From positions 1 to 23,553 of IMG/VR virus record IMGVR_UViG_3300002835_001114: 23,553 nucleotides of DNA; one strand, given 5' to 3'. A model generated the notes under the pieces. That model made no database searches. It was given only the letters and a program-made list of their open reading frames with translations, and had not been told where the DNA came from. Positions 66 through 22,425 of the stretch are shown piece after piece. This DNA comes from a virus. Each line of letters opens with the position of its first letter. Positions within the stretch are counted from its first letter, which is position 1. The position numbers and the translations under genes were made by a program.

Positions 66-350
66 TTATTGAAACACATTAATGTCTCCATCCATGAAAA
101 TAAAAATATTTGCATCTTGGAATCCATATAATCCGCATTCTAATAAATATAATTTCTCACATAAAGTGCCGTCTAAAATTTTAAGATATACCGCAGGAGC
201 ATAAGGAAAAAAACTATCAGTATTAAATACTACTGAAGGTGGTATTGATGTTACTCCTGTAACAAAAAAACAAGCAGTGTTATTTGAATCACAAACATAA
301 ATGTTGTAAGGACTTGTTCCACTTGTTATACCTGTAATCGTTACTAACAT
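66..350 (-). CDS. Small one-domain SprB-repeat-like protein, 94 aa (second of a pair)
   Basis: This is a short, beta-rich, Cys-containing protein. Its core (SGTSPYNIYVCD, then paired Cys, FNT.FF, LKILDG..C) lines up with the protein encoded immediately upstream (GGTPPYQFYVCD, FNT-like TLNTFF, IKVVDSTGC). Both resemble a single SprB-type repeat, with PPY/SPY near the start and D..GC near the end. No signal peptide or membrane segment is visible. I start it at the ATG at 350-348; a longer TTG start at 356 adds only two residues. With the ATG it overlaps the preceding stop by 7 nt, so translation is probably coupled. It lies at the 3' end of the fibre gene cluster, so a small fibre-tip, adaptor or decoration subunit is plausible. 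The function is inferred from context only. Confidence 0.6.
   Translation of the reverse strand: MLVTITGITSGTSPYNIYVCDSNNTACFFVTGVTSIPPSVVFNTDSFFPYAPAVYLKILDGTLCEKLYLLECGLYGFQDANIFIFMDGDINVFQ
314..334 (-). repeat. 21-bp exact repeat, copy 1 (other copy at 14014-14034)
   Basis: The 21 bases at 314-334 recur exactly at 14014-14034 inside the 1632-aa gene. In both places they encode the peptide word GITSGT in the same frame. Shared peptide usage explains part of the match, but codon-for-codon identity over 21 bp in two unrelated genes is unusual. It may be a trace of exchange between structural genes. Confidence 0.5.
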
Positions 351-634
351 ATCCAAAGAAGTCTTTCTCCACTTTCTGTGGTTATTATAAGTTCTGTTTC
401 GGTTAATATATAGAATGTTTCACCTTGACAATAAACATATTTGAAATTGATACATCCTGTACTATCAACAACCTTTATTAAAAGAACATTTGCGCTTGAA
501 AAAAATGTATTTAAAGTAAATGTTCCACCGGTTTGACCCAATAGAAAACAATTATTCATGAATTCATCACATACATAAAACTGATAAGGAGGAGTTCCAC
601 CTGTTTGCCCCGATATGATTAGTTGTGATGACAT
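344..634 (-). CDS. Small one-domain SprB-repeat-like protein, 96 aa (first of a pair)
   Basis: This short beta-rich protein has a core (SGQTGGTPPYQFYVCD at about residues 8-23, then NNCFLLGQTGG, VVDSTGC and a YVYC end) that resembles one SprB-type repeat and is paralogous to the next gene downstream. A C-terminal tail of about 30 residues follows the domain and ends in LLWIC. I choose the ATG at 634-632, which gives a TAATG overlap with the stop of the 1005-aa gene, the arrangement also used by its neighbours. The upstream TTG at 643 would add three residues and is less likely. Its place right after the repeat-rich fibre gene suggests a fibre-associated subunit or a split-off copy of one repeat. 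No enzyme motif is seen. Confidence 0.6.
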   Translation of the reverse strand: MSSQLIISGQTGGTPPYQFYVCDEFMNNCFLLGQTGGTFTLNTFFSSANVLLIKVVDSTGCINFKYVYCQGETFYILTETELIITTESGERLLWIC

Positions 635-3600
635 TAAGGACAAGTTTGAACATTTGTTATTGCTCCTGAAGCATTAATTTGAATTGCGTATTTCGTGTTA
701 TACGTGAAACCTGAACTATAACCAAGACCGGTTGGTACTGGAGCCGAGTAAACCGAAATCCACCTATTATTTCCATTAACTAAATTAGTTCCTGTTGTAC
801 CTGAATATACCGTAGAACCAACATTAGGTGTTGCACCCGTATTAACTAACCTATATGATGTGTTATAAGTTATGTTGTTACACGCATCACCACTTGTTGT
901 TGCTGAAATTGAGCTACCACCAATCCAATTTTGACTACCGAAATCCGGTGCAGTATATCTCCATCTTAAAAATGAAGAACCAGTTCCTGGTGGGCCGATA
1001 GTTGACCCTGAACTTGAATTCAATATTTCTAAATAATGTAACTTTTGACCGTAAACTCCTGTAAATGTTGTTGCACTTGATATAACATTTAAAGTTCCAA
1101 CTCCTGAACTGTTTGTCGATGCGGTAAATGTGTTAGCACTATATTCATTGTAATTAATTCCATTCACTGATGTCCCACCAGAAAGATTAATTAAATTTAC
1201 TAATGACATTCTCATTGTTAGAATCTCATTAGGTGCTCCTGAATATGATATAGTTCCCGTTTCAACACCAGACACAGGCCATAAACCACCACCTACATTA
1301 GAAAATGAAGTTGATGTAAATAAAGCTGAATATGTAGGTGTTGGAGGTGGATACACATACCCTGAACAAGTTACATCATAAACAATTTCCAATCCTAAAG
1401 TAAAATCGGCATCACCCAGTGGGTCATCATCACCATTACAATTTGAAAGTATAGTTAAAGTATTATTTAATAAATCGATGTTATAACTTTGTATTTGGCT
1501 AATGTTAGACAAAATACTTTCGATTGTTGATTGCCAAACCGTATCTTGAGGAACGTCGTTCAATGTTGTTGCAGTATAGAATGTTTGTGTAAATGCACTT
1601 CCATTGATGTCTATTTCACAAATAAGCTCAGCAGAATTAAACGAACACCCTGTATACCCTGATGTTATATCCAAATAACCTTCATTCAACATTTCAATTA
1701 AACCTCTTTGCCCACCAGATGTTGTTGTAAATGTATTTGTACAAAGATTAAAAGTTTGATATGAACTAACTAAATTACCAATACAATTTATTAAAACATT
1801 TTGTGTTTGTGTACAACCTGACCCATCTACAATAGTAACCGTATAATTACCTTCACCTAAATTAGTTAAGGTTGAGCCTGTTGCACCATTTGACCAATTG
1901 TACGTGAATGGTGGTGCCCCATCATAAATTTGAACTTGAGCGGTCCCGTCATTAGCCCCCGTACAATTTGTGGTTACAATACCTGTAATCAAATTACCTC
2001 CTGTTGTGATTGAGAATCCTGTGGAAACGACACATCCGTCAGCATCAGTAACACTGATTGTATATGACCCAGCCGCTAAATCTGTATAAGTTACAGACGA
2101 TAGTGGAGAATCTATTAGAGTGTCACCATTACTTAAAATATAATCTAAAGGTGCAGTATAACCCGTACCCACCGTAATAATCGCTTCGCCATTTAATTGT
2201 CCACATGTAGAACCTGTAGTCGAAGCGCTTATTGTAAATTTAGGTGTTGATGTTACGTTTACCTGTTCTGTATAAACACAATTACTACCACTACCTGAAA
2301 TTGTTACAAGATATGTGTCTGTTTGTAGGTTTGAAAATGTGTAAGTTTGACTTTGGCTATTTTCTGATTGAACATTTCCTGACGTTTGTCCCGATAATGT
2401 AAAAACATAAGACTGATTAGTCCCACCAACGGTAACTTGTATTGCTCCTCCGTTTGCATTACAAACAGGATTTGTTGTTGATATATTTACAGTATCAAAA
2501 CCTCCCGGTGTTATTACGTTACCGCCAACAAAAATCTCACAATAACTTGCGTCTCTTACTAATACTTGGTAATTTCCAGCACTTAAGTTTGGAAGTGTGA
2601 ACGTATTATTAAGTGTATAACTTACATAACCAGTTGTTGCCGAATAATAAAAAGGTAAGGTTCCACCTGTCACTGTGAAAGTTAAAGAACCATCATTTTG
2701 AAAGCACGTAGGTTGTGTTGCCGTTAAAAACCCTAAACCTAATGGGTCTGCAACACCAACGGTTTCGCTTTTGGTTGTTTGACATCCAAGACTATCCGTT
2801 ACAGTACAACTATAAACCCCTTGAGTTAATCCTGTAATAATTTGTGTTGTTTCACCATTACTCCAAGAGTACGTATATGGTCCTGTACCCGTAACACCTG
2901 TGACTGCCAATTTACCCCAATTCTGAACACAGTTTGAAGTATTTACCTTCCAAAACCCAAAATCGACCGCAGTACTTGTACTTATAAGTGCATTTTCAGT
3001 ATATGCGGTCGCTAAACCATTATCTACAACAATCGCATAATATATACCATCACCTAAGTCCGTAAAATTATGTGGAAAAACCGTCGCAACTTCTGTTGAG
3101 TCATAAACACCATTTTTATATAATAGTATGGTATATGGTGACCCTGACGTTGCAGCACTTACTTGTAAAAATCCGTTATTTACCCCACAAGTGGTTCCAC
3201 TTGCATTAAATATTTTAGCATCAAAACAACCACTCACAGTTACGTTGATGTACAATTCATTATTTTGTAATCCTTGTGAGTCGTTTAATCTAAAAACATA
3301 TGTTCCACCCGAAAGACCTGAAAACGTAATTTGTGTTGTCCCTGTTTGAGCACTTATTGTTGGGTCAAAAACATTATCAATCGTATAAGGTGGAACACCA
3401 CCAATAGGATTAAATTGAATTGTTCCTGTTGCCGCAGAACATACCCCAGTTAATGAAAAACTATAGTCAAGAATTCCTTGATTACAATTTATAGTACAGG
3501 TTTGTCCTGTTGCAATGTATACACCTATTGATGAACCTGTATATGTTTCATCCAAACAAATACCTTCTCCAACGGATGCGCCTGTTCTTGTGAAACCACA

Positions 3601-3651
3601 ACAATCCACATATGTATATACCCCGTTAGTTAAACCTGAAACACAAGCCAT
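634..3651 (-). CDS. Tail-fibre-like protein with SprB-type repeats, 1005 aa
   Basis: This is a probable tail fibre or adhesin. A Cys-rich N-terminal segment (residues 1-70, with VDCCG and GICLDETYTG) may be the anchor. About seven degenerate repeats of 60-100 residues follow (about 71-628), with hallmarks such as GTGPYTYSWSNGETTQ, GLTQGVYSCTVTDSLGC and GAPPFTYNWSNGATGST. These match the SprB repeat known from the Flavobacterium gliding adhesin and related Bacteroidota surface proteins. A Cys-bounded domain (about 645-762) resembles one in the 1119-aa neighbour and leads into a PPPTPT linker. A Gly/Ser/Thr-rich beta domain of about 240 residues ends the protein and is a candidate receptor-binding tip. 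No signal peptide or enzyme motif is visible. The start at 3651 follows the A-run typical here, 8 nt after the upstream stop. The fibre role is inferred from composition and position. Confidence 0.75.
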   Translation of the reverse strand: MACVSGLTNGVYTYVDCCGFTRTGASVGEGICLDETYTGSSIGVYIATGQTCTINCNQGILDYSFSLTGVCSAATGTIQFNPIGGVPPYTIDNVFDPTISAQTGTTQITFSGLSGGTYVFRLNDSQGLQNNELYINVTVSGCFDAKIFNASGTTCGVNNGFLQVSAATSGSPYTILLYKNGVYDSTEVATVFPHNFTDLGDGIYYAIVVDNGLATAYTENALISTSTAVDFGFWKVNTSNCVQNWGKLAVTGVTGTGPYTYSWSNGETTQIITGLTQGVYSCTVTDSLGCQTTKSETVGVADPLGLGFLTATQPTCFQNDGSLTFTVTGGTLPFYYSATTGYVSYTLNNTFTLPNLSAGNYQVLVRDASYCEIFVGGNVITPGGFDTVNISTTNPVCNANGGAIQVTVGGTNQSYVFTLSGQTSGNVQSENSQSQTYTFSNLQTDTYLVTISGSGSNCVYTEQVNVTSTPKFTISASTTGSTCGQLNGEAIITVGTGYTAPLDYILSNGDTLIDSPLSSVTYTDLAAGSYTISVTDADGCVVSTGFSITTGGNLITGIVTTNCTGANDGTAQVQIYDGAPPFTYNWSNGATGSTLTNLGEGNYTVTIVDGSGCTQTQNVLINCIGNLVSSYQTFNLCTNTFTTTSGGQRGLIEMLNEGYLDITSGYTGCSFNSAELICEIDINGSAFTQTFYTATTLNDVPQDTVWQSTIESILSNISQIQSYNIDLLNNTLTILSNCNGDDDPLGDADFTLGLEIVYDVTCSGYVYPPPTPTYSALFTSTSFSNVGGGLWPVSGVETGTISYSGAPNEILTMRMSLVNLINLSGGTSVNGINYNEYSANTFTASTNSSGVGTLNVISSATTFTGVYGQKLHYLEILNSSSGSTIGPPGTGSSFLRWRYTAPDFGSQNWIGGSSISATTSGDACNNITYNTSYRLVNTGATPNVGSTVYSGTTGTNLVNGNNRWISVYSAPVPTGLGYSSGFTYNTKYAIQINASGAITNVQTCP
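1365..1715 (-). other. Cys-bounded domain shared with the 1119-aa protein (copy in the fibre gene)
   Basis: Residues of about 645-762 of the 1005-aa protein run from GLIEMLNEG to YDVTC. They align by eye with about 862-978 of the upstream 1119-aa protein: common positions include a QxFYT word, LND-P versus IND-YP, a YN..L..N.L.I.SN.C stretch, and an L.L.I..D..C end before a Pro/Thr linker. Similarity is low but runs over roughly 110 residues in the same order. The function of the domain is unknown. Confidence 0.5.
1770..3440 (-). repeat. About seven tandem SprB-like protein repeats
   Basis: This is a protein-level repeat array inside the 1005-aa gene. Each unit tends to hold a Cys near its start, an NDG/NGG/NNG word, a PY or PFTY word, SNG in the best copies, then G.Y...V.D..GC at its end. 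The third and seventh units are the clearest (GPYTYSWSNG and PPFTYNWSNG); the second and fifth are the most degenerate. DNA identity between units is low, so the array is old and not a recent slippage product. Confidence 0.7.
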
Positions 3652-3659
3652 TTTTTATA

Positions 3660-6600
3660 TTAACAAATTACGTATCCGCTACCAGTGTTTTGGATGTTTA
3701 TGTAGATAAGGTTTGAACCACTAACTACTGTGTGTGTATTGTATGAACTAATTCCACAATAACCCGTATAAATACCACTATTGTTACCACTACCAAATCT
3801 AATATTATTAAATGTCGAATTTAATACCCCAAAGTCAATAACACTACCAACAACCGCAGAAGTCCCGTAAGGTTGGTAGTTTTGGAAAGTGGATGGTTTA
3901 TTTCCAACAGTTTGTCCATTCAAATAAGTCCAAGCACCACCATTAACTCTATAAACAAACGATACATTTGCTGGTGACGCAACAGGCGCCCCAAAATAGA
4001 AATTAACCTCAGAATAAACCGGAGTTGGTGTTGGCGTCGGTGTAGGTGTTGGCGTCGGTGTAGGTGTTTGAGTAGGTTCAGGCGGTGTACAATTTATATC
4101 TATATCGATACCAATATTCAAATATAATGTACTAGCCGAGAAATTATCATAACAAGATGAGTTACTAACAATTAAACTATTACCCGCAAAGTAGTAGTTT
4201 AATCCATAGTTATATAATCCCGCAAGTTCTGTATCTAAAGCATTAATTAATTGAGTCTGTGTTGGGTAATCATTAATACCGTAACCAGTGTAGAATTGTT
4301 CTTGTACTAATATTTGTGAGTCCAATCTACAATCAACGTACCAATTAGAAACAATACTATTTAAGTCACACATGTTTTGTGTGAATCCACTTTGAGTTAA
4401 TAAACTTGAAAGTAATGATTGAATCATTTCTGAAGGTGAACCTTGAATTGTACAAGTAAGTGTTTGGTCTATGCAATCGTAAGCAAATGGTTGTCCTGTA
4501 TATTTACAAGGAATACAAGCTACAGGAATAATTTGACAACCTCTTTGTCTTCTCCAAACATATTTTTGTCTATGGAAAATAGAGTTTTCCATTTTTTGAC
4601 CTGTTAACCACAATGATGTGCCAGGAACCATTTGTTCTAAAAGTCTTTGCCAATAATCACCAAGACCCAAAGTATAATCAATCATTTTTTGGTAAGTGAA
4701 GTTGTTGTTTGGAATACCTATAGTTTGTTCCGATTGTAAGTAATTCCAAAACACAGATTGCAAAGTCGGATATCCTCCTGTTTTACCATCACTTATAGTT
4801 TGCCTGTTTCTTACATTTATAAAATTGTTATAGAAACTTTGAGCAAACTCAAAGAAAGTTTTTTGTTTTGGTTTTGGGTCAATATGCGTCCAATCGACAT
4901 TACCAGGATACGGGTATGGTGCGGTTAGACCTGAATTAGGAATCGGATAGTCATACTTAACGGACATATCCCATACATCATATACCATACCTTGCCCCAT
5001 ATTAACGTATAGTTCAAGATTTTTTGAGTTGATTACTAATTTATCGTTTGATACTGAATAATCAACCCCATTAAAGTTATCGTTATTTTTTCTTGTTCCA
5101 ACTTGACCAACCACCCAAGATTTTTGATTATCAGATACTCTTCTTAAAGTATACCCGACATTCATGTCAGGAAACTTTCTAAGACTATTCATGTAATCTT
5201 GTCCAAAATTAAATGGTTGTAACTTTGTTATTAAGTATGGGTTTGACCCAGTAAATGATGAATTCTCAGAATCAACAACTTGAGCTGACCTATGTTTTGC
5301 GGTTTTTTCAAACCAACCTGAACCTTTTTGAAAAAAGTTATCACTTGTTTGTTGTGGACTTTTTGGGTATCCGTCACCATCAACACCATAATCACCTAAG
5401 GTCGTGTTAACTAATTTGATTAAACCGCTGTTTGTATACCCTGTATATTGAACTCCTTGTATTTTAAAAACATTAGTCCCATCTAAAACCGGTGTTGTCA
5501 CATATTTTGTTCCACCTGATATACTAGCATATTCTTCATTAAATTTATCTACATTAATTTTAGCGTCCGCAACGTATACAATCTCATTAAACTCCAACAA
5601 AGCCTCAGGAGCACCAATGAATCTCATAACATACTCTAAAGATTGTCTTGTACCTTTAGTTTTGTACATATAAGCCGCATTCAATATTAAGTTTCTATAA
5701 TATTGATAGTTTAACTCGGTTGGTGATGGTGTATTTTGTTGACCAGGATAAATTTGTTGTGGTTTTGGATTGAAGACTGATGTTAAAAAGTCTTCATTCG
5801 TATTTGGTGAAATGTTTGGGTTTATACCTAATGTTTGAGCTAAATTAAAAAGTAATTGTGATGGTATGTCATTACCCACTTGGTAATTAACAGATGTCAT
5901 ATTGGCTAAGCTGTCTATGAATTTTTTTACCTCATCAAAACTTCTACCATAAATTTGTAAAACTTTTTCAACTTTTTGGTCGGTAGTATCAAATTCTTTA
6001 AATGACCCTGTGATTAAGAACCTACTAATTAAGTTTGTTTTATACTCATCTAATCTTTCAGCAACTAACTGTAATCCATCAAGATATTCTGTAAATATGC
6101 TCGATTGAATATCTAAATTCCATGCTCCACCAATAGGCCAATTTAAAGTCCTATTATATTGAGTGTACTTACCATTACTATCGTATTCAGGATAAGAAAA
6201 CGTAGCACTATATTTTGGAGTTGTGTTTTGATTTAATAAGAATTTTTCAACCTCATCAAAATCATTTGTAAAAATTTGTTGAGTTTTATCATTATTTGGC
6301 CTGATAACTAAAGTCCTTATTGATGTTGTCAAACCACTAAACACATTACCTTTAACGGTTATAGTTAAGGTTCCACCTGCTAAATTTGGTGTTGGTATAA
6401 TATCAGTTAGAGGGTATTCAGTTTGTAAATCACTATAATAAAGAGCGTAACTTTCGTACTCACTTGTAAGTGCTCTAATTGGACTTATGGGAAATGGTCT
6501 TACTTCTATATTTCTTTTTGCATTTACTGAATAGTCTATTTCAAATGGGTTTCTAAATAACCCAGTGTCCATGTCAAATGTCGTCTCATCGTTTATAGAA

Positions 6601-7019
6601 TTATAAACAATATTAAATGCGGTGTTACCTGAATATAAACTAGATTGTTGGTCGGCATAAACCTCAATCGCCGCTGGAAAATTGTTAATTATTTTAATCG
6701 CACTGGAAGATAACCTTTTAGCTAACGAACCATACAATGAAAAACTTGTAATTTCCGATAAATCAAAGTTTGGGTAAACTTTAAAGTTTTGTTCAATTAT
6801 CGCTTTAGCTTCTTCAATACTACCTACATTAAGATTTTCTAACGTATAAGGTTGTGAAAAGACACCTGTATCAAATTTTCTATTTGTTTTTTCATAAATG
6901 GCACTTGTGAATTGAAAATTCCCCTGTGTAAGTCCACCGGCATCAGTAATCTGAACTCCGACAAGATTATCTGCGAAAGTATTAGTTCCAATAGGTGGGT
7001 AAAATATTTTATTTGCCAT
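3660..7019 (-). CDS. Large baseplate/tail protein with Thr-Pro linker and C-terminal beta domain, 1119 aa
   Basis: This is a probable structural tail protein. The first 860 residues form a large unrecognised body. Within it, at about 440-475, is a helical stretch with NAAYMYKTKGTRQSLEYV followed by MRFIGAPEA; a K.KGT...(I/L)..(L/M)..(I/F)G pattern is familiar from baseplate/tail proteins of the P2 gpI-like kind, so a wedge role is possible. About 830-860 is Cys-rich (VACIPCKYTGQPF). About 862-978 resembles a domain in the downstream fibre gene. A linker of eight Thr-Pro pairs then leads to a terminal beta-rich domain of about 115 residues ending in GSGYVIC. It starts at a TAATG junction with the 302-aa gene. 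The stalk-and-tip layout suggests it carries or is a receptor-contacting arm. No enzyme motif was recognised. Confidence 0.65.
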   Translation of the reverse strand: MANKIFYPPIGTNTFADNLVGVQITDAGGLTQGNFQFTSAIYEKTNRKFDTGVFSQPYTLENLNVGSIEEAKAIIEQNFKVYPNFDLSEITSFSLYGSLAKRLSSSAIKIINNFPAAIEVYADQQSSLYSGNTAFNIVYNSINDETTFDMDTGLFRNPFEIDYSVNAKRNIEVRPFPISPIRALTSEYESYALYYSDLQTEYPLTDIIPTPNLAGGTLTITVKGNVFSGLTTSIRTLVIRPNNDKTQQIFTNDFDEVEKFLLNQNTTPKYSATFSYPEYDSNGKYTQYNRTLNWPIGGAWNLDIQSSIFTEYLDGLQLVAERLDEYKTNLISRFLITGSFKEFDTTDQKVEKVLQIYGRSFDEVKKFIDSLANMTSVNYQVGNDIPSQLLFNLAQTLGINPNISPNTNEDFLTSVFNPKPQQIYPGQQNTPSPTELNYQYYRNLILNAAYMYKTKGTRQSLEYVMRFIGAPEALLEFNEIVYVADAKINVDKFNEEYASISGGTKYVTTPVLDGTNVFKIQGVQYTGYTNSGLIKLVNTTLGDYGVDGDGYPKSPQQTSDNFFQKGSGWFEKTAKHRSAQVVDSENSSFTGSNPYLITKLQPFNFGQDYMNSLRKFPDMNVGYTLRRVSDNQKSWVVGQVGTRKNNDNFNGVDYSVSNDKLVINSKNLELYVNMGQGMVYDVWDMSVKYDYPIPNSGLTAPYPYPGNVDWTHIDPKPKQKTFFEFAQSFYNNFINVRNRQTISDGKTGGYPTLQSVFWNYLQSEQTIGIPNNNFTYQKMIDYTLGLGDYWQRLLEQMVPGTSLWLTGQKMENSIFHRQKYVWRRQRGCQIIPVACIPCKYTGQPFAYDCIDQTLTCTIQGSPSEMIQSLLSSLLTQSGFTQNMCDLNSIVSNWYVDCRLDSQILVQEQFYTGYGINDYPTQTQLINALDTELAGLYNYGLNYYFAGNSLIVSNSSCYDNFSASTLYLNIGIDIDINCTPPEPTQTPTPTPTPTPTPTPTPVYSEVNFYFGAPVASPANVSFVYRVNGGAWTYLNGQTVGNKPSTFQNYQPYGTSAVVGSVIDFGVLNSTFNNIRFGSGNNSGIYTGYCGISSYNTHTVVSGSNLIYINIQNTGSGYVIC
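4020..4067 (-). repeat. Thr-Pro coding microsatellite (6-bp unit, 18-bp tandem)
   Basis: Eight Thr-Pro dipeptides are coded by near-identical hexamers. Within them an 18-mer, GGTGTTGGCGTCGGTGTA on the plus strand, occurs twice in exact tandem (4027-4044 and 4045-4062). It encodes an extended linker between the shared Cys-bounded domain and the terminal beta domain of the 1119-aa protein. Such tracts vary in length by slippage in steps that keep the reading frame. Confidence 0.9.
4083..4430 (-). other. Cys-bounded domain shared with the fibre protein (copy in the 1119-aa gene)
   Basis: Residues of about 862-978 run from SLLSSLLTQSG to GIDIDINC. They contain DSQILVQEQFYTGYGINDYP, an NYG-LNYYFAGNSLIVSNSSC stretch and the closing INC before PPEPT. 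The same order of landmarks occurs in the 1005-aa protein. Both copies sit directly before a proline-rich linker, which supports a common origin as a domain-linker module. Confidence 0.5.
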
Positions 7020-9944: not shown

Positions 9945-11688
9945 AATCGTCTGTTGTAGGTTGGTTTATAATTGTTGTAACAATTTCATTAGTTCTTTGC
10001 ATTGGTTTTTGTAAAAACAAAACTTGTTTGTAAGGATAATGGGCTCCATTTATAAATGGATAATCTAAACCATTACCTTCAGAATCAATATACCCAAAAC
10101 CATAGATATCCCTCCAAATAAATGATTGGTTATATTCTGAAAACCACGCATAGGTTGGGATATTGTCAGTTTTAGTTTTTAATGCGGTCTCTATGTATCC
10201 ACTAAAAACTCTAATAGGTATTGATTGATGTGGTTCGTAAACATACCCACTTGGTAAATTTAATGGTGAATTATCAGAAAAATATGAACTATTAAATGAA
10301 TACTTATGATGTATGGGTGATAACACATATTCTTTTTGTTCGATATAATTGTATTCACAAAAATCACCTTTTATTGTTGAGCCGGTTGTTAGAAAATCAT
10401 TATAATAAAATTTTTGACCACTTCCTGTTGGTTGCTCATAACTAGATAATGGTATGTTATCTTTATTATTTATTGATGTATGGTCCCACCATGTGTCAAC
10501 AGAATTTGATAAGAAATTGAATCCCCAACCTATATCAATACCTGTTGGTTGATTATTTGAATTTATTGCTGGTGGGTTAAACCAACCCATATAACCTCTT
10601 TGAATAAATGATAAGAATAATTCTGTAACCGGTTTCCCGTTATTATCCTTTAATCCGGATATACGTATATCTTTATTTAAAACAAAACTAAAAGTTTTAG
10701 AACCTTCTTTTACTGAAATCCTTTGTGTATTATTGGGAGTTAGTGCCGAGTATTCTATTTTAGATTTGGTGTTAAATGGTATATTTTCAAACCCCGCCTG
10801 TGTAATATTAAAATCACTATTTGTTGATATCACTTTGTGTAATCTGATATAGTAAATTGATTTTGTTTCAGTACTATTTACGATGTTTGTAATTCTTTTA
10901 AAAGTTCCATTTAACCCTGTTGTAGTTTGGTTTAATGGGTATTTTAAATTAAACACTGAAAATACTTTTTCTTCTGAACGATACTGACTATCCCCTAACC
11001 CAAACACTTCAAAAACCTTTTTACCACCAATACCTCCAGGTAGTGTCGGCATATTTATTTCGATAAATTCACCAACATTAAGGTTATGCGGAACCCCACA
11101 ATAGAAAAATAAAACCTTTTTACCGTTTATTACTCCAGTTGTTAAGATAAAAGGAATACCATCACCTGAAGTAAAATTGACACTTACATTGAATTTTTCA
11201 GAAGTATACTTCATAGGTTGTGTGGTGTCACTACTATATGGATAGGTTAAATTCATCATCCAATTGTATGATGTTGCACTCTTTGAGACGTATGTTCTGT
11301 GTCCTGTAACCGCAGAGTATCTTACTAATGTAAATTCATCAAATTGTGGGTAACCTTCCCATGGAACGTTAGGGTTTGGTGGTGTGTTTAATGTCGCATT
11401 TGCAATAGCATTAGTATAATAAAGAATGTTCCTATATGGTGTATAAGTGGTTTTACCTGAAACCGTATTTTGAAATATGTTTGTTAATTTTCCTGATATT
11501 CTAAATGTATCACTATCTTGTCTTTCAGTTTCAAACTGGTCTGTTAAATTTACAGTTATTGACCTATCACCTTCAACCATAGTTCTTCTATCCCCAATAA
11601 GTGGTGGTTGAATCCAAATGTCTTTGTCAGTATTACCTGCAAATTGTTTTGAACCTAAAACTATTTGTATTTCGTTTTGATTAGACAT
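9937..11688 (-). CDS. Unrecognised baseplate-region protein, 583 aa
   Basis: I do not recognise this family. It is soluble, beta-rich, and rich in Asn, Thr, Tyr and Phe throughout, as virion proteins often are. It has no transmembrane segment, no signal peptide and very few Cys (FFYCGVPH, GDFCEYNY and the terminal DDCE). N-terminal residues 35-75 hold charged stretches (VEGDRSITVNLTDQFETERQ), and the C-terminus has an aromatic-rich IYGFGYIDSEGNG block. The ATG lies in an 8-nt overlap (ATGTCTAA) with the end of the 1632-aa gene, and its own end overlaps the next gene by 8 nt, so this stretch is one polycistron. A structural role in the baseplate is inferred from position between gp6-like and fibre genes. 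Confidence 0.6.
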   Translation of the reverse strand: MSNQNEIQIVLGSKQFAGNTDKDIWIQPPLIGDRRTMVEGDRSITVNLTDQFETERQDSDTFRISGKLTNIFQNTVSGKTTYTPYRNILYYTNAIANATLNTPPNPNVPWEGYPQFDEFTLVRYSAVTGHRTYVSKSATSYNWMMNLTYPYSSDTTQPMKYTSEKFNVSVNFTSGDGIPFILTTGVINGKKVLFFYCGVPHNLNVGEFIEINMPTLPGGIGGKKVFEVFGLGDSQYRSEEKVFSVFNLKYPLNQTTTGLNGTFKRITNIVNSTETKSIYYIRLHKVISTNSDFNITQAGFENIPFNTKSKIEYSALTPNNTQRISVKEGSKTFSFVLNKDIRISGLKDNNGKPVTELFLSFIQRGYMGWFNPPAINSNNQPTGIDIGWGFNFLSNSVDTWWDHTSINNKDNIPLSSYEQPTGSGQKFYYNDFLTTGSTIKGDFCEYNYIEQKEYVLSPIHHKYSFNSSYFSDNSPLNLPSGYVYEPHQSIPIRVFSGYIETALKTKTDNIPTYAWFSEYNQSFIWRDIYGFGYIDSEGNGLDYPFINGAHYPYKQVLFLQKPMQRTNEIVTTIINQPTTDDCE

Positions 11689-14600
11689 CTTGATTAAAAA
11701 TATATTTAGTTATGTATCTGTTCATCACACTTTTACCTTTAAATAAACCAAAATAGAAATGGTATGGTGCACCAACAACAAATTTATCGTTTTGTCCCGG
11801 TGGGAATGTTGCGGTATTTCCATTACTATTTGTATTATAGATATAACCTTTCTTACCGTAATTTGTCGTATTAAAGTAATTTGAGAATGGTGCTTGGTAA
11901 AAACTCATCGTTTGGTATTTTTGTTTATAAAATCCTAAACCTTGTAGTCCTGTTTGCCATTCGTTTTCATCAGAACCAAATATGGTATTGGTGTTAGCTA
12001 ACTTCCATAAATAAAATGGAACTTCCTGAGTTTTAGGGTAACCAAAATAATTTGTTAGTGTTGGTGTAAATGTTGTTATACCAGGAGTTAGTTTAATTCG
12101 GTTTTCGGTATTACCCGTAAAGAAGACGCCAACTAACGCATCACCTGAACCGGCAACATATAGTGTATCATCATCGTAGACATCATCACTAAATCCTTCG
12201 ACACCATATTCTGAGTTAATACTGAATAATTGTGCAATATCACCATCAATTCTATCTTCACTTCTTGAGAACATTCTGTTGATTGACGCATCTCCAATAC
12301 CTAACATTTGACCTAAGAAATTGGAATTTATCAATCGTGAAATAATAAACAATTGTAATAAATCTGATGTATCATTAAACGACGTAGATTGGAAGGTTTC
12401 CATTAGGTACCCTTCAAATTGTGGGTTAGCACATATTTCTTTTGTAAATTGGTCTCTCGGACCTAAATCCATTATTGTTGTTGGGAAATATAAGTTCCTT
12501 TCATTCATACCTCCATATCCGGCAGGTACAAATGGTGTTAATGGTACAAGTTTTCTTTTTGGCATTTGACCAACAAATTGGCTACCTGTGTAAGGTGTTG
12601 CCCGATAATACAATCCATTTGTTTTTCCTTCGGCATAAAATACAGGTCCTTGACCAGGTCTAAAGACGCTATCATAACTACCACAGAATTGATATTTTTT
12701 GGGTTGTCCTGTAATATTAAAAATTGTTTTTTTCTTAAACGAGAACATATATAAAGAACCGTTTACCCAATTATTCTGAAATACTTGTGAAAACACACCC
12801 CTACAAGCCCCAAACATCATTCTAAATCTAGCCTTCCACTCAATAAAATATTTAATATCCTTAGGTATTGAAATAATTAATGGTTTGTCCACAAAATAAT
12901 AACACCCACCACTTACTCGTTTATTATCTAAATTTCCATCACAAGGGTCATTAACACCAAAACTTGTACCCGTACCACTATAACATTCTAAAAGTGTTAA
13001 GTTCTCACATTGTAAAGAACCGATAACAGCATCTGTAATGGCGTTAGAAGTGTCACCAGTTAAATCCGCTAAATTATTAGTCGTATCTGTTGGTTGTAAT
13101 GAAACAAAAGGAGCCACCGTTCCATTACCATCTTCACCAACCAAATACACCGCAAAATTATCATTAAGGTGTAAAGAATATGATGTATTACCACTTGTTT
13201 GTGTTTTTGTTGATGTTGGTAACCTATCGGACCTTAACACCATTCTATTATTATTTGTAATTGTTACATTAGCATTTAACTGTAAATGGTACGCCGGTGA
13301 CATTAATCTTGCTTGACTATTAGGGTTAGCAATAGGGTTAAAAGGTGTTCCAGCAGGTATACTGGAAGTTAATAGAGTACCCCCTTCAAAATTACCTTGT
13401 CCGATAAATGCGTTAGTTATGTAATTATACTGAAAGGTAAAATTATTAACAGTGTTATTACTAATAGCCCCTCCGTTATTTGAATAATGACCTAAATTAT
13501 AACTGTCACCATTAAATGATTTATGAGTTGTTTGGCTTTTATCAGTTGAGTTATAGTAGTAAACTGAATTATTTGTGAATGAAGTAAACTGAGTTGGGTC
13601 CACAGTAAATCCATATGGTTCAAAGTATAGGTTAGCTCCATTATATGGTGAGGTTGTGGTATTATCTGTAACTTTATGTGTTTGTGGTGTCACATATGAA
13701 CTATACCAAGGATACATACCTTGTCCAAATGATTGTGGACCCGAATTTGGTTGTATAGGTATATTCAAATGATATATACCCTCTACCGTAGGTCCATTTG
13801 ATAATGCGTAACCAAATAATTTTGAGAGGTCATATTTTATTTTTTGTTTCTCAGTGTAAGGGTCAACCCCTCTACTAAGAATTAAAATTTCCATTTCTAA
13901 AAATCCATCTAAGAATTTCCACGGAGTGATATAATCATTATGATTAAATGATGGTGGTAATCCATAATTATATGTTTGTGTTTTTCTAAACAAATACTGA
14001 TTTAATAAACCAGTTGTTCCACTTGTTATACCTGAAAATTGCTGAGTGGTGGCACCTGTAATAAGTTGGAAGTACTCGACCCCAGCTTTAAATTTATATT
14101 CTTTTCCGTTTTCAGTGATTTTTAATTTTAAAGTCCCACTTTGTACGTTACCGTTTGTATCAACCCAACTAAATTGTTTGTTATATAAACTGTTTGGACT
14201 ATAAGGCGTTGAACCTGTTATATTATTTGTATTATACTGATTAATTGTCGTTAACCCTGTAGTGTTTGGGTCATTGATTGCACTTAAATCTGTAAAGGTT
14301 AATAATTGTCCTGGAGGCATATTTGATATGGTTCCTGAATCACATAACATAACAAGAACACTATCATCAAAGGTTGTTGATGGGTCAACCGTATTAGTAA
14401 GCGGATTAGTATTATTTACAGTAACTTTGATATGATTTAACCCGTCAAAATATCTTTGTCTTACGTTTGCTAAATTCATTGATTGAGCTAAATGAACGTC
14501 ATATCCTATTGAAGGTATTCCCCCTTGTACTAAAAATTGCGTCACAGGAACTTTTAATAGTTTATCTAAGTTGTTTCCTGAATTCAGTACTTGATATCCT

Positions 14601-16579
14601 GCATATGCTTGTCTAATCGCATTATTATAACTTTCAGGACTACTAGATGTTGATGCATATGAACTATTATATGTTTCAAATGAAGATATAGAATTTAAAT
14701 CCGCCAATGGGCTAAAATTACTTGCTGATATTGTAACAGTTGCACTTTGTTGGAATGACGATTCATCCGGAGGTAATGCAACATCTTCACAAGGACACGC
14801 TTCACAATCAGGATAAGACATCATAGGTAAAGAAATTCTTTTAAATGGATTTTCTTTATCTAATGGGGTTATGTTTTCTTGTTTACAATCTTCTTTTTTC
14901 TTTTTAGTTGATATTGCAGCAATAATTAAACAAATCCCATATATTACTACGTTTATTATCCATATTATAAGATTTATTATTATTCGAATTACAGGGTATA
15001 GTAATGCTAAAACATGTAATATTATAATTAAAGACACAAAAACAGGTGTTAAAATTGTAACAAGTAAGTTTAATATGAATACCAAGAAATCAAAATTTCT
15101 AACACCATCGTTAACCGGAAACTTATTAACCGTATTAACACAAGTCCTATCTGTAATATCTTTAATACCTAAATGTCGTAATCTATTTGAACCCCATTTC
15201 CATCTATCGACTAATCCCGATATCGTATAAACTTTATTATAATTAAATTGGTAGAACCTATCTTCACAATCAATAGCTTCTTGTATCATTTGTTGACCTA
15301 TTGTTGTTGTTGGGTCCCCGTATTCAGTCCAATCTAAACTAAAGGCGTATGAGTATAACTGAGCGTCGGTATCGGTTGGCTCGTCATTGTTATTAGATGA
15401 CCAACCCCATTCTTTAACATTAGGAACTAAATAATCACCACGCATAATACTATTTTCCATACCAGCCTCATTCTGATATTGAATTCTAAATCTGTATTTA
15501 CCTTTTGTTGGGATTCCTACTGATGGGTCATTTGATAATACTTGTTCCCCAAATTCATTAGTTGTGACATAATCTAAGTTCATAGGAACTTCAATTAACC
15601 ATGTTCCGTTGTCATCAATTACTTTACCACCTTCAGGTAATGTGTATTGTTCTAAAACAGGTCTTCCATCATTATCGTAATTAATTGTTTGTCTAACCGC
15701 TAAAATTCTACCAGGAGCAGTTACTAAACTACATAGATTACCTGTTTCTTTTCCGGGTTTACAATTTGTTTTCAAATAGTCTTCATCGGCCGATGAAAAA
15801 ATTGACCCCATAAAAACAGCGTGAGGTTTAATATCAATTCCAAAATCTCTTAAATCGAAATCGGCCCTTGTAATCCCAACATTACATAATTCGGTTTCAC
15901 CCCAAAATGAAGTAACATCAACATCTTGTTTGATGTTAACAATTTGTGGTAAGGAATTTAAATCTGTTGATGATTTGAATTGGTCTCCGTCAAATTGCTC
16001 AGTAGTTGCTAAACCCGCTCTTATTAAATCTGCAGGTCTTAAAGAAAAACAACCAATGTTTGATAAATCTAAATCTAAAATTAATGTTTGAATTCCAAGT
16101 GGGGCTCCGATTATCATAAAGTCACCACTTTCATTAGTTTTAACGGTAAACTTATAATACTTTTCGTATACCTCTAAAACTTCAGTTCTTGTTAAAACAT
16201 CATTTTTATCAGGAAAAGTTCCAGTTGCAGTATGCCCATCATATTCTTTTACGTAAGGTAATAGGTTATATCTATAACCATCTTCATTTTTTTGTTCTAC
16301 GTTTTTATAAGGATAAAGTGTGGATATTACCGGGTCATTTTCATCAATTGCATCAAGAGGAATAAATATAGATACATTTGCGTTTGGTACACCATATCCA
16401 CCGTTAACAATTACCCTACCAGCAACTACACCATAATCAGCACAAAACCTCGTATAAACGTCTTCTTGTCTTAATTTTAAAGACAGCATTTCTAAAAAAT
16501 CAAAATCCTGAGTGACGTTAATTCGTATACTTCTTTCTTTTTTTCCTGGTGTTGATTTTATCCTATAACTTTTGGTCAT
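11681..16579 (-). CDS. Giant baseplate-region protein, 1632 aa, with regulatory-like beta domain and hydrophobic core
   Basis: This is the largest gene in the window and sits where T4 has gene 7, just after gp6; a wedge-scaffold role is inferred from that only. Residues of about 45-185 look like a CarboxypepD-regulatory/transthyretin-like beta-sandwich: VVAGRVIVNGGYGVPNANVS, then TVKTNESGDFMIIGAPLG. Residues of about 500-558 are almost all hydrophobic (FLVFILNLLVTILTPVFVS, a second block LIIILHVLALLYPVI, then RIIINLIIWIINVVIYG) and could form two or three membrane spans. STKKKKEDC follows, then a Cys cluster DCEACPCED. The remaining 1000 residues are Asn/Thr-rich and beta-like, ending with FYFGLFKGKSVMNRY. 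Membrane-type segments within a tail protein are unusual. No enzyme motif is seen. The ATG lies 13 nt after a conserved gap element. Confidence 0.7.
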   Translation of the reverse strand: MTKSYRIKSTPGKKERSIRINVTQDFDFLEMLSLKLRQEDVYTRFCADYGVVAGRVIVNGGYGVPNANVSIFIPLDAIDENDPVISTLYPYKNVEQKNEDGYRYNLLPYVKEYDGHTATGTFPDKNDVLTRTEVLEVYEKYYKFTVKTNESGDFMIIGAPLGIQTLILDLDLSNIGCFSLRPADLIRAGLATTEQFDGDQFKSSTDLNSLPQIVNIKQDVDVTSFWGETELCNVGITRADFDLRDFGIDIKPHAVFMGSIFSSADEDYLKTNCKPGKETGNLCSLVTAPGRILAVRQTINYDNDGRPVLEQYTLPEGGKVIDDNGTWLIEVPMNLDYVTTNEFGEQVLSNDPSVGIPTKGKYRFRIQYQNEAGMENSIMRGDYLVPNVKEWGWSSNNNDEPTDTDAQLYSYAFSLDWTEYGDPTTTIGQQMIQEAIDCEDRFYQFNYNKVYTISGLVDRWKWGSNRLRHLGIKDITDRTCVNTVNKFPVNDGVRNFDFLVFILNLLVTILTPVFVSLIIILHVLALLYPVIRIIINLIIWIINVVIYGICLIIAAISTKKKKEDCKQENITPLDKENPFKRISLPMMSYPDCEACPCEDVALPPDESSFQQSATVTISASNFSPLADLNSISSFETYNSSYASTSSSPESYNNAIRQAYAGYQVLNSGNNLDKLLKVPVTQFLVQGGIPSIGYDVHLAQSMNLANVRQRYFDGLNHIKVTVNNTNPLTNTVDPSTTFDDSVLVMLCDSGTISNMPPGQLLTFTDLSAINDPNTTGLTTINQYNTNNITGSTPYSPNSLYNKQFSWVDTNGNVQSGTLKLKITENGKEYKFKAGVEYFQLITGATTQQFSGITSGTTGLLNQYLFRKTQTYNYGLPPSFNHNDYITPWKFLDGFLEMEILILSRGVDPYTEKQKIKYDLSKLFGYALSNGPTVEGIYHLNIPIQPNSGPQSFGQGMYPWYSSYVTPQTHKVTDNTTTSPYNGANLYFEPYGFTVDPTQFTSFTNNSVYYYNSTDKSQTTHKSFNGDSYNLGHYSNNGGAISNNTVNNFTFQYNYITNAFIGQGNFEGGTLLTSSIPAGTPFNPIANPNSQARLMSPAYHLQLNANVTITNNNRMVLRSDRLPTSTKTQTSGNTSYSLHLNDNFAVYLVGEDGNGTVAPFVSLQPTDTTNNLADLTGDTSNAITDAVIGSLQCENLTLLECYSGTGTSFGVNDPCDGNLDNKRVSGGCYYFVDKPLIISIPKDIKYFIEWKARFRMMFGACRGVFSQVFQNNWVNGSLYMFSFKKKTIFNITGQPKKYQFCGSYDSVFRPGQGPVFYAEGKTNGLYYRATPYTGSQFVGQMPKRKLVPLTPFVPAGYGGMNERNLYFPTTIMDLGPRDQFTKEICANPQFEGYLMETFQSTSFNDTSDLLQLFIISRLINSNFLGQMLGIGDASINRMFSRSEDRIDGDIAQLFSINSEYGVEGFSDDVYDDDTLYVAGSGDALVGVFFTGNTENRIKLTPGITTFTPTLTNYFGYPKTQEVPFYLWKLANTNTIFGSDENEWQTGLQGLGFYKQKYQTMSFYQAPFSNYFNTTNYGKKGYIYNTNSNGNTATFPPGQNDKFVVGAPYHFYFGLFKGKSVMNRYITKYIFNQDV
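14014..14034 (-). repeat. 21-bp exact repeat, copy 2 (other copy at 314-334)
   Basis: This stretch in the 1632-aa gene is identical to 314-334 in the 94-aa gene. Here it encodes GITSGT within FSGITSGTTGL. See copy 1 for interpretation. Confidence 0.5.
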
Positions 16580-16650: not shown

Positions 16651-18489
16651 TTAGGAGAAATCTACGGTCGCAAGATTTTTAACATACACTCGTATGTCTT
16701 TATTATCAAAACGTATTTGATAAACCTGTGAAGGTTCTGCGTAAATATTATCGTCAATTAATCTAATCTCACGAGTTGCTTTATTGATATACGACTGTGA
16801 CGTTTCTGATGTTGAATATTGTCCACCTACTAAGTTAAAAACTTGTAAATTAGATAAACTTATCACACCTGCGGTATTTTGAATTAACCTTCTTACATCA
16901 GATATGTTTACGTTTTGTCCCATATCACGATTTCCTGGTGTCATATAATTTGAAACTTGATTAATAATTTCAGTAATAACTTGACCTCTATTAACATTTG
17001 ATTCCACAACCACATATATATCAAAAGCTAAGTCGATAACTTTAGCTACATCAATTTGTATGTAGTCATTTATCATTCTATATTTTGAAAGGTAAGTTGC
17101 TAAGTTTGTCTTAAGATTATTAGAAACCGTTTGTGTCAATTTACCATTTTCATCATAAGCTAAAATTTGAACGGTGATTTTATTATCTAATTCAGTAATT
17201 GCAACTTTTGCGGGTGCTCCAAATTTTCCTGGCATCGTATCAATTAATGATTTATAATCGTTTACAGTTACTGCTCTTTTTTGTGCCGCAAAATTAAATG
17301 CCACCATGTTTCTCACTTCTTCTGTTGTTGGTGGGTTTGACCCTCCAATCGCTGCAGTTACATTATTAACCGTTAAAGAATCAATTACATTTGAGTTAAT
17401 TGAACTTGATGGACCATTTACCGAAAAATCAATTGTTCCTACTTGATTGATTACCCCAACACCAACATTTGACGCTAAACCACCACCTGTTCTATATTGG
17501 ACAAAAATTGTTGTATTTGGTTGAACCGTTAACCCTAAACCAATGTTATTTTGGTAATTAGCCAAGTCTAAGTTTATACCTAACTTAGCAAAGTTAGCCA
17601 ATTGAATATTTGGAGTTGTCGTTCCTCCTCCAAATTGAACTTTTAAAAATCCTTCGGGTGTGTATTCGGTAATGAATCTATTTTCAGTTTTAATATATTT
17701 TCCAACTTTAACACCAGCATTATCCACAGGTTTTGTTGGGTCTTCTATGAATACCGTATCTTCAGCCAATGCATCAACTTCATACCATCTATTTGTAGCC
17801 GTTACAAATTCAGTATAATCGGGAACGTTTGGATATCCAGTTCCGTCTTTTTGAATTATAGAATTAACACCTAAAACGTTTCTTTCAGGTAAAAAGAAAT
17901 TAAAGAAAGGAACCACATCGGATGGGTTGATTACTCTTTTAAAAACTTTGGTTGTTCCGTTAACCACAACCTCTTGTTTTGTGATTACGTAATTAATGAT
18001 TTTTTGGTTAGCATCAAAAGTAGGTACTTTAGTTCTATTAACTTCACCTTCTTGGTTATATTGATTAGTGAAGTCAATATCATAAACCGTTTCGAATGAA
18101 TTTCCTCCTCCGTTAAATTGTGAACCCGCTCTTAAAATTCCTAAATATCTAAAATCTTCAGCATCACCTAATGGTGGGACTGTGATTGAAATATTAACCA
18201 CGGCAACGGATGGTCTGTAACCAGGTATTTTTAAACCATAAGTTCTTGCAATATTAAAGATTGAAGACTTCTGTTGGGCATATTGTAATACAGTCTCTTG
18301 TACACTTCTATCAATATGATAATGTAAATTATCGGCAACCGCAGCATTTAAATCCATTAAAACAGAGAATACAGATGCATCATTAAAATTTTGAACGAGC
18401 TCAGGATAATACTGTTTAGTGTAATTAATTAAACCATCTCTGATTGATTCAAAATCCCTATCGGTATAGTTAATTTTATTATTAGCCAT
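16651..18489 (-). CDS. Baseplate wedge protein, T4 gp6-like (Baseplate_J family), 612 aa
   Basis: In T4, gp6 dimers join the six wedges into the inner baseplate ring and control its change of shape; this protein should do the same. The N-terminus (NYTDRDFESIRDGLINYTKQ, then NFNDASVFSVLMDLNAAVAD) matches the start of gp6/J-like wedge proteins. At about 388-418 is the conserved region TTEEVRNMVAFNFAAQKRAV followed by TVNDYKSLI, diagnostic of Baseplate_J. The C-terminal third (NISDVRRLIQNTAGVISLSN) fits the family's last domain. Its length is close to T4 gp6 (660 aa). One base separates it from the gp25-like stop, and gp25-gp6 adjacency is a common arrangement in contractile tails and type VI secretion clusters (TssE-TssF order). 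The start at 18489 is an ATG with MANN. Confidence 0.9.
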   Translation of the reverse strand: MANNKINYTDRDFESIRDGLINYTKQYYPELVQNFNDASVFSVLMDLNAAVADNLHYHIDRSVQETVLQYAQQKSSIFNIARTYGLKIPGYRPSVAVVNISITVPPLGDAEDFRYLGILRAGSQFNGGGNSFETVYDIDFTNQYNQEGEVNRTKVPTFDANQKIINYVITKQEVVVNGTTKVFKRVINPSDVVPFFNFFLPERNVLGVNSIIQKDGTGYPNVPDYTEFVTATNRWYEVDALAEDTVFIEDPTKPVDNAGVKVGKYIKTENRFITEYTPEGFLKVQFGGGTTTPNIQLANFAKLGINLDLANYQNNIGLGLTVQPNTTIFVQYRTGGGLASNVGVGVINQVGTIDFSVNGPSSSINSNVIDSLTVNNVTAAIGGSNPPTTEEVRNMVAFNFAAQKRAVTVNDYKSLIDTMPGKFGAPAKVAITELDNKITVQILAYDENGKLTQTVSNNLKTNLATYLSKYRMINDYIQIDVAKVIDLAFDIYVVVESNVNRGQVITEIINQVSNYMTPGNRDMGQNVNISDVRRLIQNTAGVISLSNLQVFNLVGGQYSTSETSQSYINKATREIRLIDDNIYAEPSQVYQIRFDNKDIRVYVKNLATVDFS

Positions 18490-18490
18490 A

Positions 18491-18955
18491 TTATATGTTA
18501 ATTATAACAAATTGTCGACTACCAAATGCTCTTGCATCATTTGTATAATCAATTTTTATTTTTGCACTATATTCTGCGGTGTTTGCTCCCGGTATACGAT
18601 AAATACTCGCCTGACCCAATAATTCATAGTCTAATTGACCTGAAGTTTCTCCAGCATCGGTATACGATTCTACAGTTATACTATTAATAGTAATATTTGG
18701 GATATACTTACTAATTTGTTCTTCTATTTCAGATTTAATCTCTTCAAAGGTTGCCCCATCTAATGGTTCAAAAATATATTCATACATTCGAGTACCAAAA
18801 TCAGGTAAAAAATACCTAGAACCTCTCCTTGTTAATAACAAGTGAACAAGATTTGCCCTTATTTCTTCATCCGTAGTTTCAGTTAATTTTAAATAATTAC
18901 CCTTTTCACTTTGTATGAATGGAAAATTTATACCATATGTTATTCCGTTAGCCAT
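18491..18955 (-). CDS. Baseplate wedge/sheath-initiator protein, gp25 (GPW/TssE) family, 154 aa
   Basis: gp25-family proteins sit at the top of the wedge and nucleate sheath polymerisation. The sequence has the family core: NLVHLLLTRRGSRYFLPDFG at about 35-54, YEYIFEPLDG at about 58-67 (the loop that carries the EPR signature in TssE; here EPL), and an EEIKSEIEEQISKYIPNITI helix-strand at 71-90, followed by a C-terminal beta hairpin. It is somewhat longer than T4 gp25 (132 aa). It is the first gene after the strong terminator at 19004-19030, and so heads the structural operon; the gap element at 18987-18996 lies 31 nt upstream. No Shine-Dalgarno is visible before the ATG. Confidence 0.9.
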   Translation of the reverse strand: MANGITYGINFPFIQSEKGNYLKLTETTDEEIRANLVHLLLTRRGSRYFLPDFGTRMYEYIFEPLDGATFEEIKSEIEEQISKYIPNITINSITVESYTDAGETSGQLDYELLGQASIYRIPGANTAEYSAKIKIDYTNDARAFGSRQFVIINI

Positions 18956-21477: not shown

Positions 21478-22425
21478 TTAAAAATCGTCTGTGAATGCTA
21501 TAGTTTCGTTTAACTTCGCTTTTTGGTATTCCATCGTTCTAGATTCAAAGAAATTACCTTTAGTTTCAACCGCAATTTGTTCCATGAACTTAAACGGTTG
21601 TTCTACATTAAATTCTTTACTACATCCGAATTTAAGTAAGAGACCATCAACAACAAACTCCAAATATTGTTTCATCAAGTTTGAATTCATACCGATTAAA
21701 GATACCGGTAAGGATTCAGTGATGAATTCTTTTTCGATTTCTAAAGCCGATAATAAAATCTCTTTAATTCTTTTTTCAGATGGTTTTTCTTCCAAGTGGT
21801 TATTCAGCAAGTGAATTGCAAAATCACAATGTAAGTTTTCATCTTTAAAGATAAGTGAGTTAGCATTACATAGTCCTTGCATAATTCCTCTTGATTTCAT
21901 CCAGAAAATAGAACAGAATGAACCTGAAAAGAAGATACCTTCAACAGCCGCAAACGCAACCAATCTTTCTGCGAATGATGCATTTTCAATCCATTCTAAT
22001 GCCCATTTAGCTTTCTTTTGAACCGCAGGTAGTCTATCAATCGCATTGAAACACTCGTCCTTTTCTTTAGCGTTTGAGATGTATGTATCAATCAATAATG
22101 AATACATTAATGAGTGAATGTTTTCCATAGCCAATTGGATTCCGTAGAAAAACTTAGCTTCAGGATACTGTACTTCACGATAGAAGTTTTCGGCCAAGTT
22201 TTCATTTACAATACCATCTGAAGCCGCAAAAAATGATAATACGTTCTTAATAAAGTATTTTTCATTGTCTGTTAGATTTTCCCAATCTCTGATGTCATTG
22301 GTTAAATCTACTTCCTCTGCCGTCCAAAATGCGGCTTGGTGTTGTTTGTAAAATTCCCATATATCGTTGTGTTCAATAGGGAAGATGACGAACCGACCAG
22401 GATTTTCTGTTAATATTTTTTCCAT
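21478..22425 (-). CDS. nrdB: Ribonucleotide reductase class Ia, small (beta) subunit, 315 aa
   Basis: It makes the tyrosyl radical that starts catalysis in NrdA. All expected di-iron ligands are visible: D40 (AEEVDLTND), E101 and H104 ([10 protein letters not shown]), E162 ([10 protein letters not shown]), E196 and H199 (KDENLHCDF). The radical Tyr is Y108 ([12 protein letters not shown]). Spacing and wording follow the mammalian R2/p53R2 type more than E. coli NrdB. The acidic-aromatic C-terminus ends in FTDDF, the usual docking peptide for NrdA. It is somewhat shorter than E. coli NrdB, mostly at the N-terminus. It lies between the helicase gene (15 nt) and nrdA (10 nt), so the operon couples fork opening to dNTP supply. 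Confidence 0.97.

Follow-up and report, generated by a model that had tools for sequence, protein, structure and literature searches.

Bacteria export their gliding adhesins by way of the type IX system. What, then, is the role of a protein bearing the SprB repeat of such adhesins when its gene lies in a phage tail cluster, and does it act as an adhesin of the cell or as a fibre of the virion? The question is raised by a 23,553-nucleotide stretch of viral DNA, positions 1 to 23,553 of IMG/VR record IMGVR_UViG_3300002835_001114, referred to hereafter as the window. Few receptor-binding proteins are known so far from large phages of Bacteroidota. With a probability of roughly 70%, the product of the gene is an adsorption fibre attached to the baseplate of a large contractile-tailed Bacteroidota phage and composed of an SprB-type stalk and a replaceable receptor-binding tip. 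In the proposed arrangement, an N-terminal domain, which a distant clade lacks, would probably anchor the fibre on the baseplate or on the 1119-aa protein encoded upstream; seven SprB-type β-sandwich repeats, apparent in both sequence and model, would form a stalk of fixed length; a cap domain is seen to close the conserved part; and the tip beyond the cap most likely contacts the host receptor. The features of the locus are as follows.

634..3651, minus strand: SprB-repeat fibre gene, an ORF of 1005 aa (Pfam SprB E 6.2e-12; 36 IMG/VR relatives)
3454..3651, minus strand: N-terminal Cys-rich domain, residues 1-66, from the alignment; missing in the distant clade L130-L138
3223..3453, minus strand: repeat R1, residues 67-143 (model, alignment, Pfam stretch)
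2962..3222, minus strand: repeat R2, residues 144-230 (hhalign to R6 and R5, model; missed by Pfam)
2743..2961, minus strand: repeat R3, residues 231-303, the most conserved repeat by far
2500..2742, minus strand: repeat R4, residues 304-384 (Pfam stretch, model, hhalign)
2245..2499, minus strand: repeat R5, residues 385-469 (Pfam stretch, model, hhalign)
1993..2244, minus strand: repeat R6, residues 470-553 (Pfam stretch, model, hhalign)
1777..1992, minus strand: repeat R7, residues 554-625 (best Pfam stretch; model)
1363..1776, minus strand: alpha/beta cap domain, residues 626-763, with which the part found in all relatives ends
637..1362, minus strand: short PPPTPT linker and 242-residue C-terminal tip, residues 764-1005 (alignments of relatives)
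344..634, minus strand: 96-aa single-domain protein of a small Ig-like family; its start overlaps the fibre stop (TAATG)
66..350, minus strand: 94-aa paralogue of the 96-aa protein; its start overlaps the stop of the 96-aa gene
3660..7019, minus strand: 1119-aa baseplate-region protein (weak TIGR02242 tail domain, E 0.037; cap homology)
16651..18489, minus strand: baseplate wedge/J-like protein (Pfam PF04865, 5.9e-6; 28% to Flavobacterium phage immuto over 99%)
18491..18955, minus strand: gp25-like baseplate assembly protein (tblastn to the annotated immuto baseplate assembly protein, 2.8e-14)
21478..22425, minus strand: ribonucleotide reductase beta subunit (NrdB), host marker (65-66% to Tenacibaculum phages Larrie and pT24)

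The SprB array and its place among baseplate genes

The fibre protein contains seven tandem repeats of ~80 aa at residues 67-625 (1777-3453), which bears out the roughly seven SprB-type repeats that the initial annotation had placed at 1770-3440. The Pfam match that it had expected is also significant: SprB (PF13573) scores 45.4 bits against a cut-off of 28 over the whole protein (E 6.2e-12), in six stretches, and is the sole Pfam family above its cut-off. The six stretches found in a search of the window DNA (1879-1968, 2119-2226, 2389-2484, 2629-2724, 2848-2925, and 3379-3441) share one open frame; one exceeds the cut-off alone (30 bits), and a second one only together with its neighbours. 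The PYTYSWSNG and VTDSLGC motifs both fall within repeat 3. R2 was tied to its siblings by profile-profile comparison (hhalign; R2-R6 97.4%, R2-R5 95.3%), and AlphaFold2 predicts a β-sandwich there despite the absence of a Pfam match. The model, computed from an alignment of 21 sequences, comprises seven β-sandwiches from residue 62 to 621 (pLDDT mostly 65-90), followed after R7 by a mixed alpha/beta domain and then by a poorly modelled C-terminus (pLDDT under 50). A PHROGs search of the fibre protein returned a weak Hoc-like match alone (E 0.021). Given these E-values, and since 20 further phage proteins (two of them cut off by a contig end after the array) have all seven repeats in register, the SprB-type repeats are, on sequence grounds, not a product of chance. 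Since the seven repeats are in register in all complete relatives, the length of the array is, as judged from the alignments, fixed.

The same fibre gene was found at 36 IMG/VR loci, among which the conserved part extends from residue 1 to ~763, the last 242 residues being absent from most. In the window it directly follows the gene of the 1119-aa baseplate-region protein and overlaps or abuts its neighbours; J-like and gp25-like baseplate genes are present, and a sheath gene occurs in 8 of the 11 relatives' records. Together with the conserved gene order, this agrees with the earlier description of a fibre-like gene within a phage tail cluster. In a second clade (L130-L138), the fibre is 36-39% identical and lacks the N-terminal domain, the repeats are kept, the cap is kept wherever the contig extends far enough, and the gene still directly follows the homologue of the 1119-aa protein, at ~37% fibre identity. 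In a third group (L139-L143), SprB-like repeats sit instead on a homologue of the 1632-aa baseplate-region protein. A long run of hydrophobic residues lies near positions 498-560 of that 1632-aa protein (11681-16579); its L142 homologue keeps the first 568 residues and then continues with SprB-like repeats.

A cap with an exchangeable tip

Comparison by hhalign (93.4%, E 2.5e-7) shows the cap to be a homologue of a domain that the upstream 1119-aa protein has near its C-terminus, where this cap-like domain is followed by a PTPTPT linker and a tip of 118 aa. With cap, PT linker and tip in common, the two neighbouring proteins would thus present their tips on the same kind of cap. Fold searches with the cap gave a best Z of 5.9; flagellin, FliD and the nozzle, baseplate and sheath domains of phages all matched weakly (Z 3.2 with T4 gp11), and no weight is placed on these matches.

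Beyond the cap, the relatives diverge. Many stop right after it (764-775 aa); in others it is followed by a PTPTPT linker and a short SGYTFEINQ end, or by a tip of ~107 to 416 residues. The window-type tip occurs in only two IMG/VR relatives; it is 78.5% like the L047 tip, and the stalk of L009 is closer to that of the window than the L047 stalk, yet L009 is tipless. The loci L014 and L015 are ~98% identical in DNA over most of 18 kb; identity falls to 62-69% exactly at the cap/tip border (L014 position 10305), stays low to the end of the tip, and resumes at 11406 after an extra gene in L014. In a pair with stalks 99% identical the tips are 58% identical, and in the pairs L135/L136 (stalk 80%) and L039/L047 (stalk 82%) the tips are unrelated. 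Across these alignments, the tip behaves as an exchangeable cassette, missing, unrelated or replaced at the cap border from one relative to another. That many relatives end after the cap indicates that some of them can do without a tip, and in these, small neighbouring proteins may serve in recognition. The tip has no Pfam match, and no chaperone or trimerisation domain was found in the fibre gene. As to diversification of the tip by a DGR, a search of 11 related records, all likely fragments, yielded no reverse transcriptase (RVT_1). Leucine-rich-like repeat tips (NNQIVTFNPSIALPTNL) form the fibre C-terminus of L134 and L135 on the same stalk. Separately, a short hairpin-like stretch, ILTEDxxxITTEDGxxLVW, ends several small proteins (window 344-634) and is inserted within the L039 cap (L039:9876-10472); it is possibly a tiny mobile module.

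A related alternative is a whisker- or Hoc-like accessory adhesin on the neck, collar or head, providing weak, general binding to glycans or the cell surface, with a tip that only tunes it. Indeed, the window gene lies just past the baseplate genes, as does the T4 whisker gene. Among the distant matches of the array, those in Klebsiella phages are Ig-like proteins with whisker, Hoc or tail-fibre annotations, and another match is the solved “putative neck whiskers protein gp24” (9occ, E 0.0016). However, the cap is common to the upstream baseplate-region protein, adjacency to that protein is conserved, and exchange of the tip is typical of receptor-binding fibres, so an accessory adhesin is considered unlikely here and an adsorption fibre attached to the baseplate is preferred.

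Repeat 3, host and origin of the array

One repeat of the stalk stands out. Mean pairwise identity is 0.74 in R3 vs 0.48-0.61 in the other six repeats, and R3 ranks first in 18 of 19 comparisons with the window protein; identity at 4-fold sites is 0.38-0.43 in all seven. Because divergence at 4-fold sites is equal across the array, the conservation of R3 is attributed to selection at the protein level. Recent gene exchange was rejected as its cause, synonymous sites in R3 being as diverged as elsewhere. Of the residues common among 1218 bacterial repeats, 22 are retained in R3, which has phage-specific conserved residues as well (F231, F233, W234, K235, K247, T254, and K294), with FGFWK at its start. 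Since selection is tighter on R3 than on its neighbours, this repeat is probably more than a spacer, and a fixed contact with another virion protein or with a common surface feature is proposed. It is quite improbable that R3, close to canonical for SprB while its siblings drift, binds a surface partner also used by the SprB-type proteins of Bacteroidota, in which case the stalk would be active, the phage would mimic the contacts of a host adhesin, and the tip would be a second, replaceable receptor binder. In Flavobacterium columnare, phage resistance is tied to loss of gliding and receptors have been proposed in the gliding machinery (PMC7345892), which is no evidence for mimicry by R3 yet gives this reading its interest. 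The earlier suggestion that the fibre binds the same partners as the gliding adhesin is unsupported: a type IX sorting domain was not found in the protein, the array acts as a spacer of constant length and the variable part is the tip.

The initial annotation had also pointed to a Bacteroidota host. When 51 residues of R3 were scanned against one genome per species (84,980 bacterial and archaeal species), 226 relatives were obtained, and the best 80 of these 226 are, by record title, all from Bacteroidota or Chlorobiota. The best of these relatives are large surface proteins, mostly with several such repeats and up to 34 hits per locus. NrdB is 65-66% identical to that of Tenacibaculum phages and 61-64% to that of two uncultured huge phages, the next named phages being at ~28%, and the closest cultured relative of the baseplate J-like protein is found in Flavobacterium phage immuto (28% over 99%), in which no SprB repeats were found. 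A Bacteroidota host is well supported, because NrdB, the baseplate protein and the genome relatives of R3 all point there.

Could the resemblance to SprB nevertheless be convergent, the array consisting of ordinary phage Ig-like or PKD-like repeats with no special history among Bacteroidota adhesins? The K319L-like PKD and Y_Y_Y families score just below their own Pfam cut-offs in the fibre protein, similar motifs occur in Ig-like proteins of Proteobacteria phages, and R1, R2, and R5 are far from bacterial repeats. On the other hand, SprB alone passes its cut-off, and R3 and R7, the former one of the two repeats most like bacterial ones, reach 54.7 and 57.9 bits against bacterial repeats and 42.4 and 47.0 against their best phage sibling, a comparison in which the larger bacterial sample favours higher bacterial scores. 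With the phylum-level consistency of the best 80 genome relatives, convergence appears very unlikely.

The most likely source of the repeats is the pool of surface proteins of Bacteroidota, from which they would have been drawn well before the divergence of these phages, to duplicate and drift afterwards. The idea that host modules were captured as a stalk is in this respect plausible; transfer may have gone either way and may have happened once or several times, the AU test on the repeat tree (76 columns) leaving a single phage clade unrejected (p-AU 0.897). Each repeat position mostly forms its own clade across phages, so the repeats are old, and a single recent capture was rejected.

Least credible of all is a cargo gene for a host-type adhesin, expressed in the course of infection and sent out to the surface of the infected cell: a huge phage, LR756502, does encode such an adhesin (14 SprB repeats plus a type IX sorting domain), but the window protein has no sorting-domain match and no apparent hydrophobic signal at its N-terminus, and its gene overlaps or abuts neighbours of the baseplate cluster, a place kept in the distant clade. 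Neither CHU_C nor TIGR04131 was found in the window protein, whereas both match the LR756502 protein; read by eye, the fibre N-terminus has no hydrophobic signal (MACVSGLTNGVY) and no hydrophobic core (MACVSGLTNGVYTYVDCCG). By place and build, the window protein is not a gliding adhesin; it reads as a virion-type fibre that shares the repeat. The complete host-type SprB adhesin of this 642-kb uncultured phage (LR756502.1, L043:10927-15939; 1670 aa) has a signal-like N-terminus (MKKLILITSILLTSLLAWAQ) and, in addition to its 14 repeats, PKD and T9SS type B sorting domains; the GC content of its gene is 0.35-0.39 vs ~0.29-0.33 around it, and no relative of it was found in IMG/VR.

Likeness to known systems

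The SprB proteins of Bacteroidota (PF13573) and the window protein have the same repeat sequence, with its Cys pair and its PYTYxWSNG and TVTDxxGC hallmarks. They differ in that the window protein has seven diverged repeats vs up to 34 per bacterial locus, no T9SS sorting domain found, no apparent signal peptide, and a gene in a phage baseplate cluster. No paper describing SprB repeats in phages was found in the literature, although automatic annotations of phage SprB exist, and the BACON arrays of crAss-like phages are the closest precedent. In crAss-like phages, BACON repeats occur in tandem in tail-associated proteins (PMC6949934). Both cases place Ig-like surface domains of Bacteroidota in tandem in a phage tail gene. 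In both, too, sequences from one repeat position mostly group as a clade of their own, so that the arrays are stable; the window differs in its domain family, its phages, its cap and exchangeable tip, and its one extra-constrained repeat. The reuse by phages of surface modules from the host phylum, known for BACON, would thereby be extended to the gliding-adhesin repeat. The anatomy of SprB array, cap and tip also marks the fibre gene and the exact swap border in dozens of metagenomic contigs, and with this recognisable anatomy the predicted tips can be tested directly against hosts.

The best viral structural match of the model (E 6e-56) is A0A6J5LD72, “SprB repeat [uncultured Caudovirales phage]” (UniProt/BFVD), a protein of 714 aa with 32% identity whose cap also matches (TM 0.78); its annotation is automatic, and none of the papers searched was found to describe how it is built. 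In T4-like phages, the fibre shaft is conserved and the tip is swapped by recombination at a fixed border. The window fibre is alike in having a conserved shaft and a tip replaced at the border, and none of the searches linked it by sequence to T4 fibre proteins. The grappling-hook protein GhpA of Aureispira (9flw), a giant cellular surface protein of solved structure with beta repeats, aligns over 433 model residues (Z 10.3, 17% identity); only the repeat fold is alike, and the overall rmsd of 43.6 Å is meaningless because the chain is flexible. Fibres of another kind occur among the relatives as well. In L008 (11614-16310), a collagen-repeat fibre gene (PF01391) adjoins a glycosyltransferase gene (PF11397), and the same kind of glycosyltransferase gene is found in the fibre cluster of several relatives, as if the phage glycosylated its own fibres.
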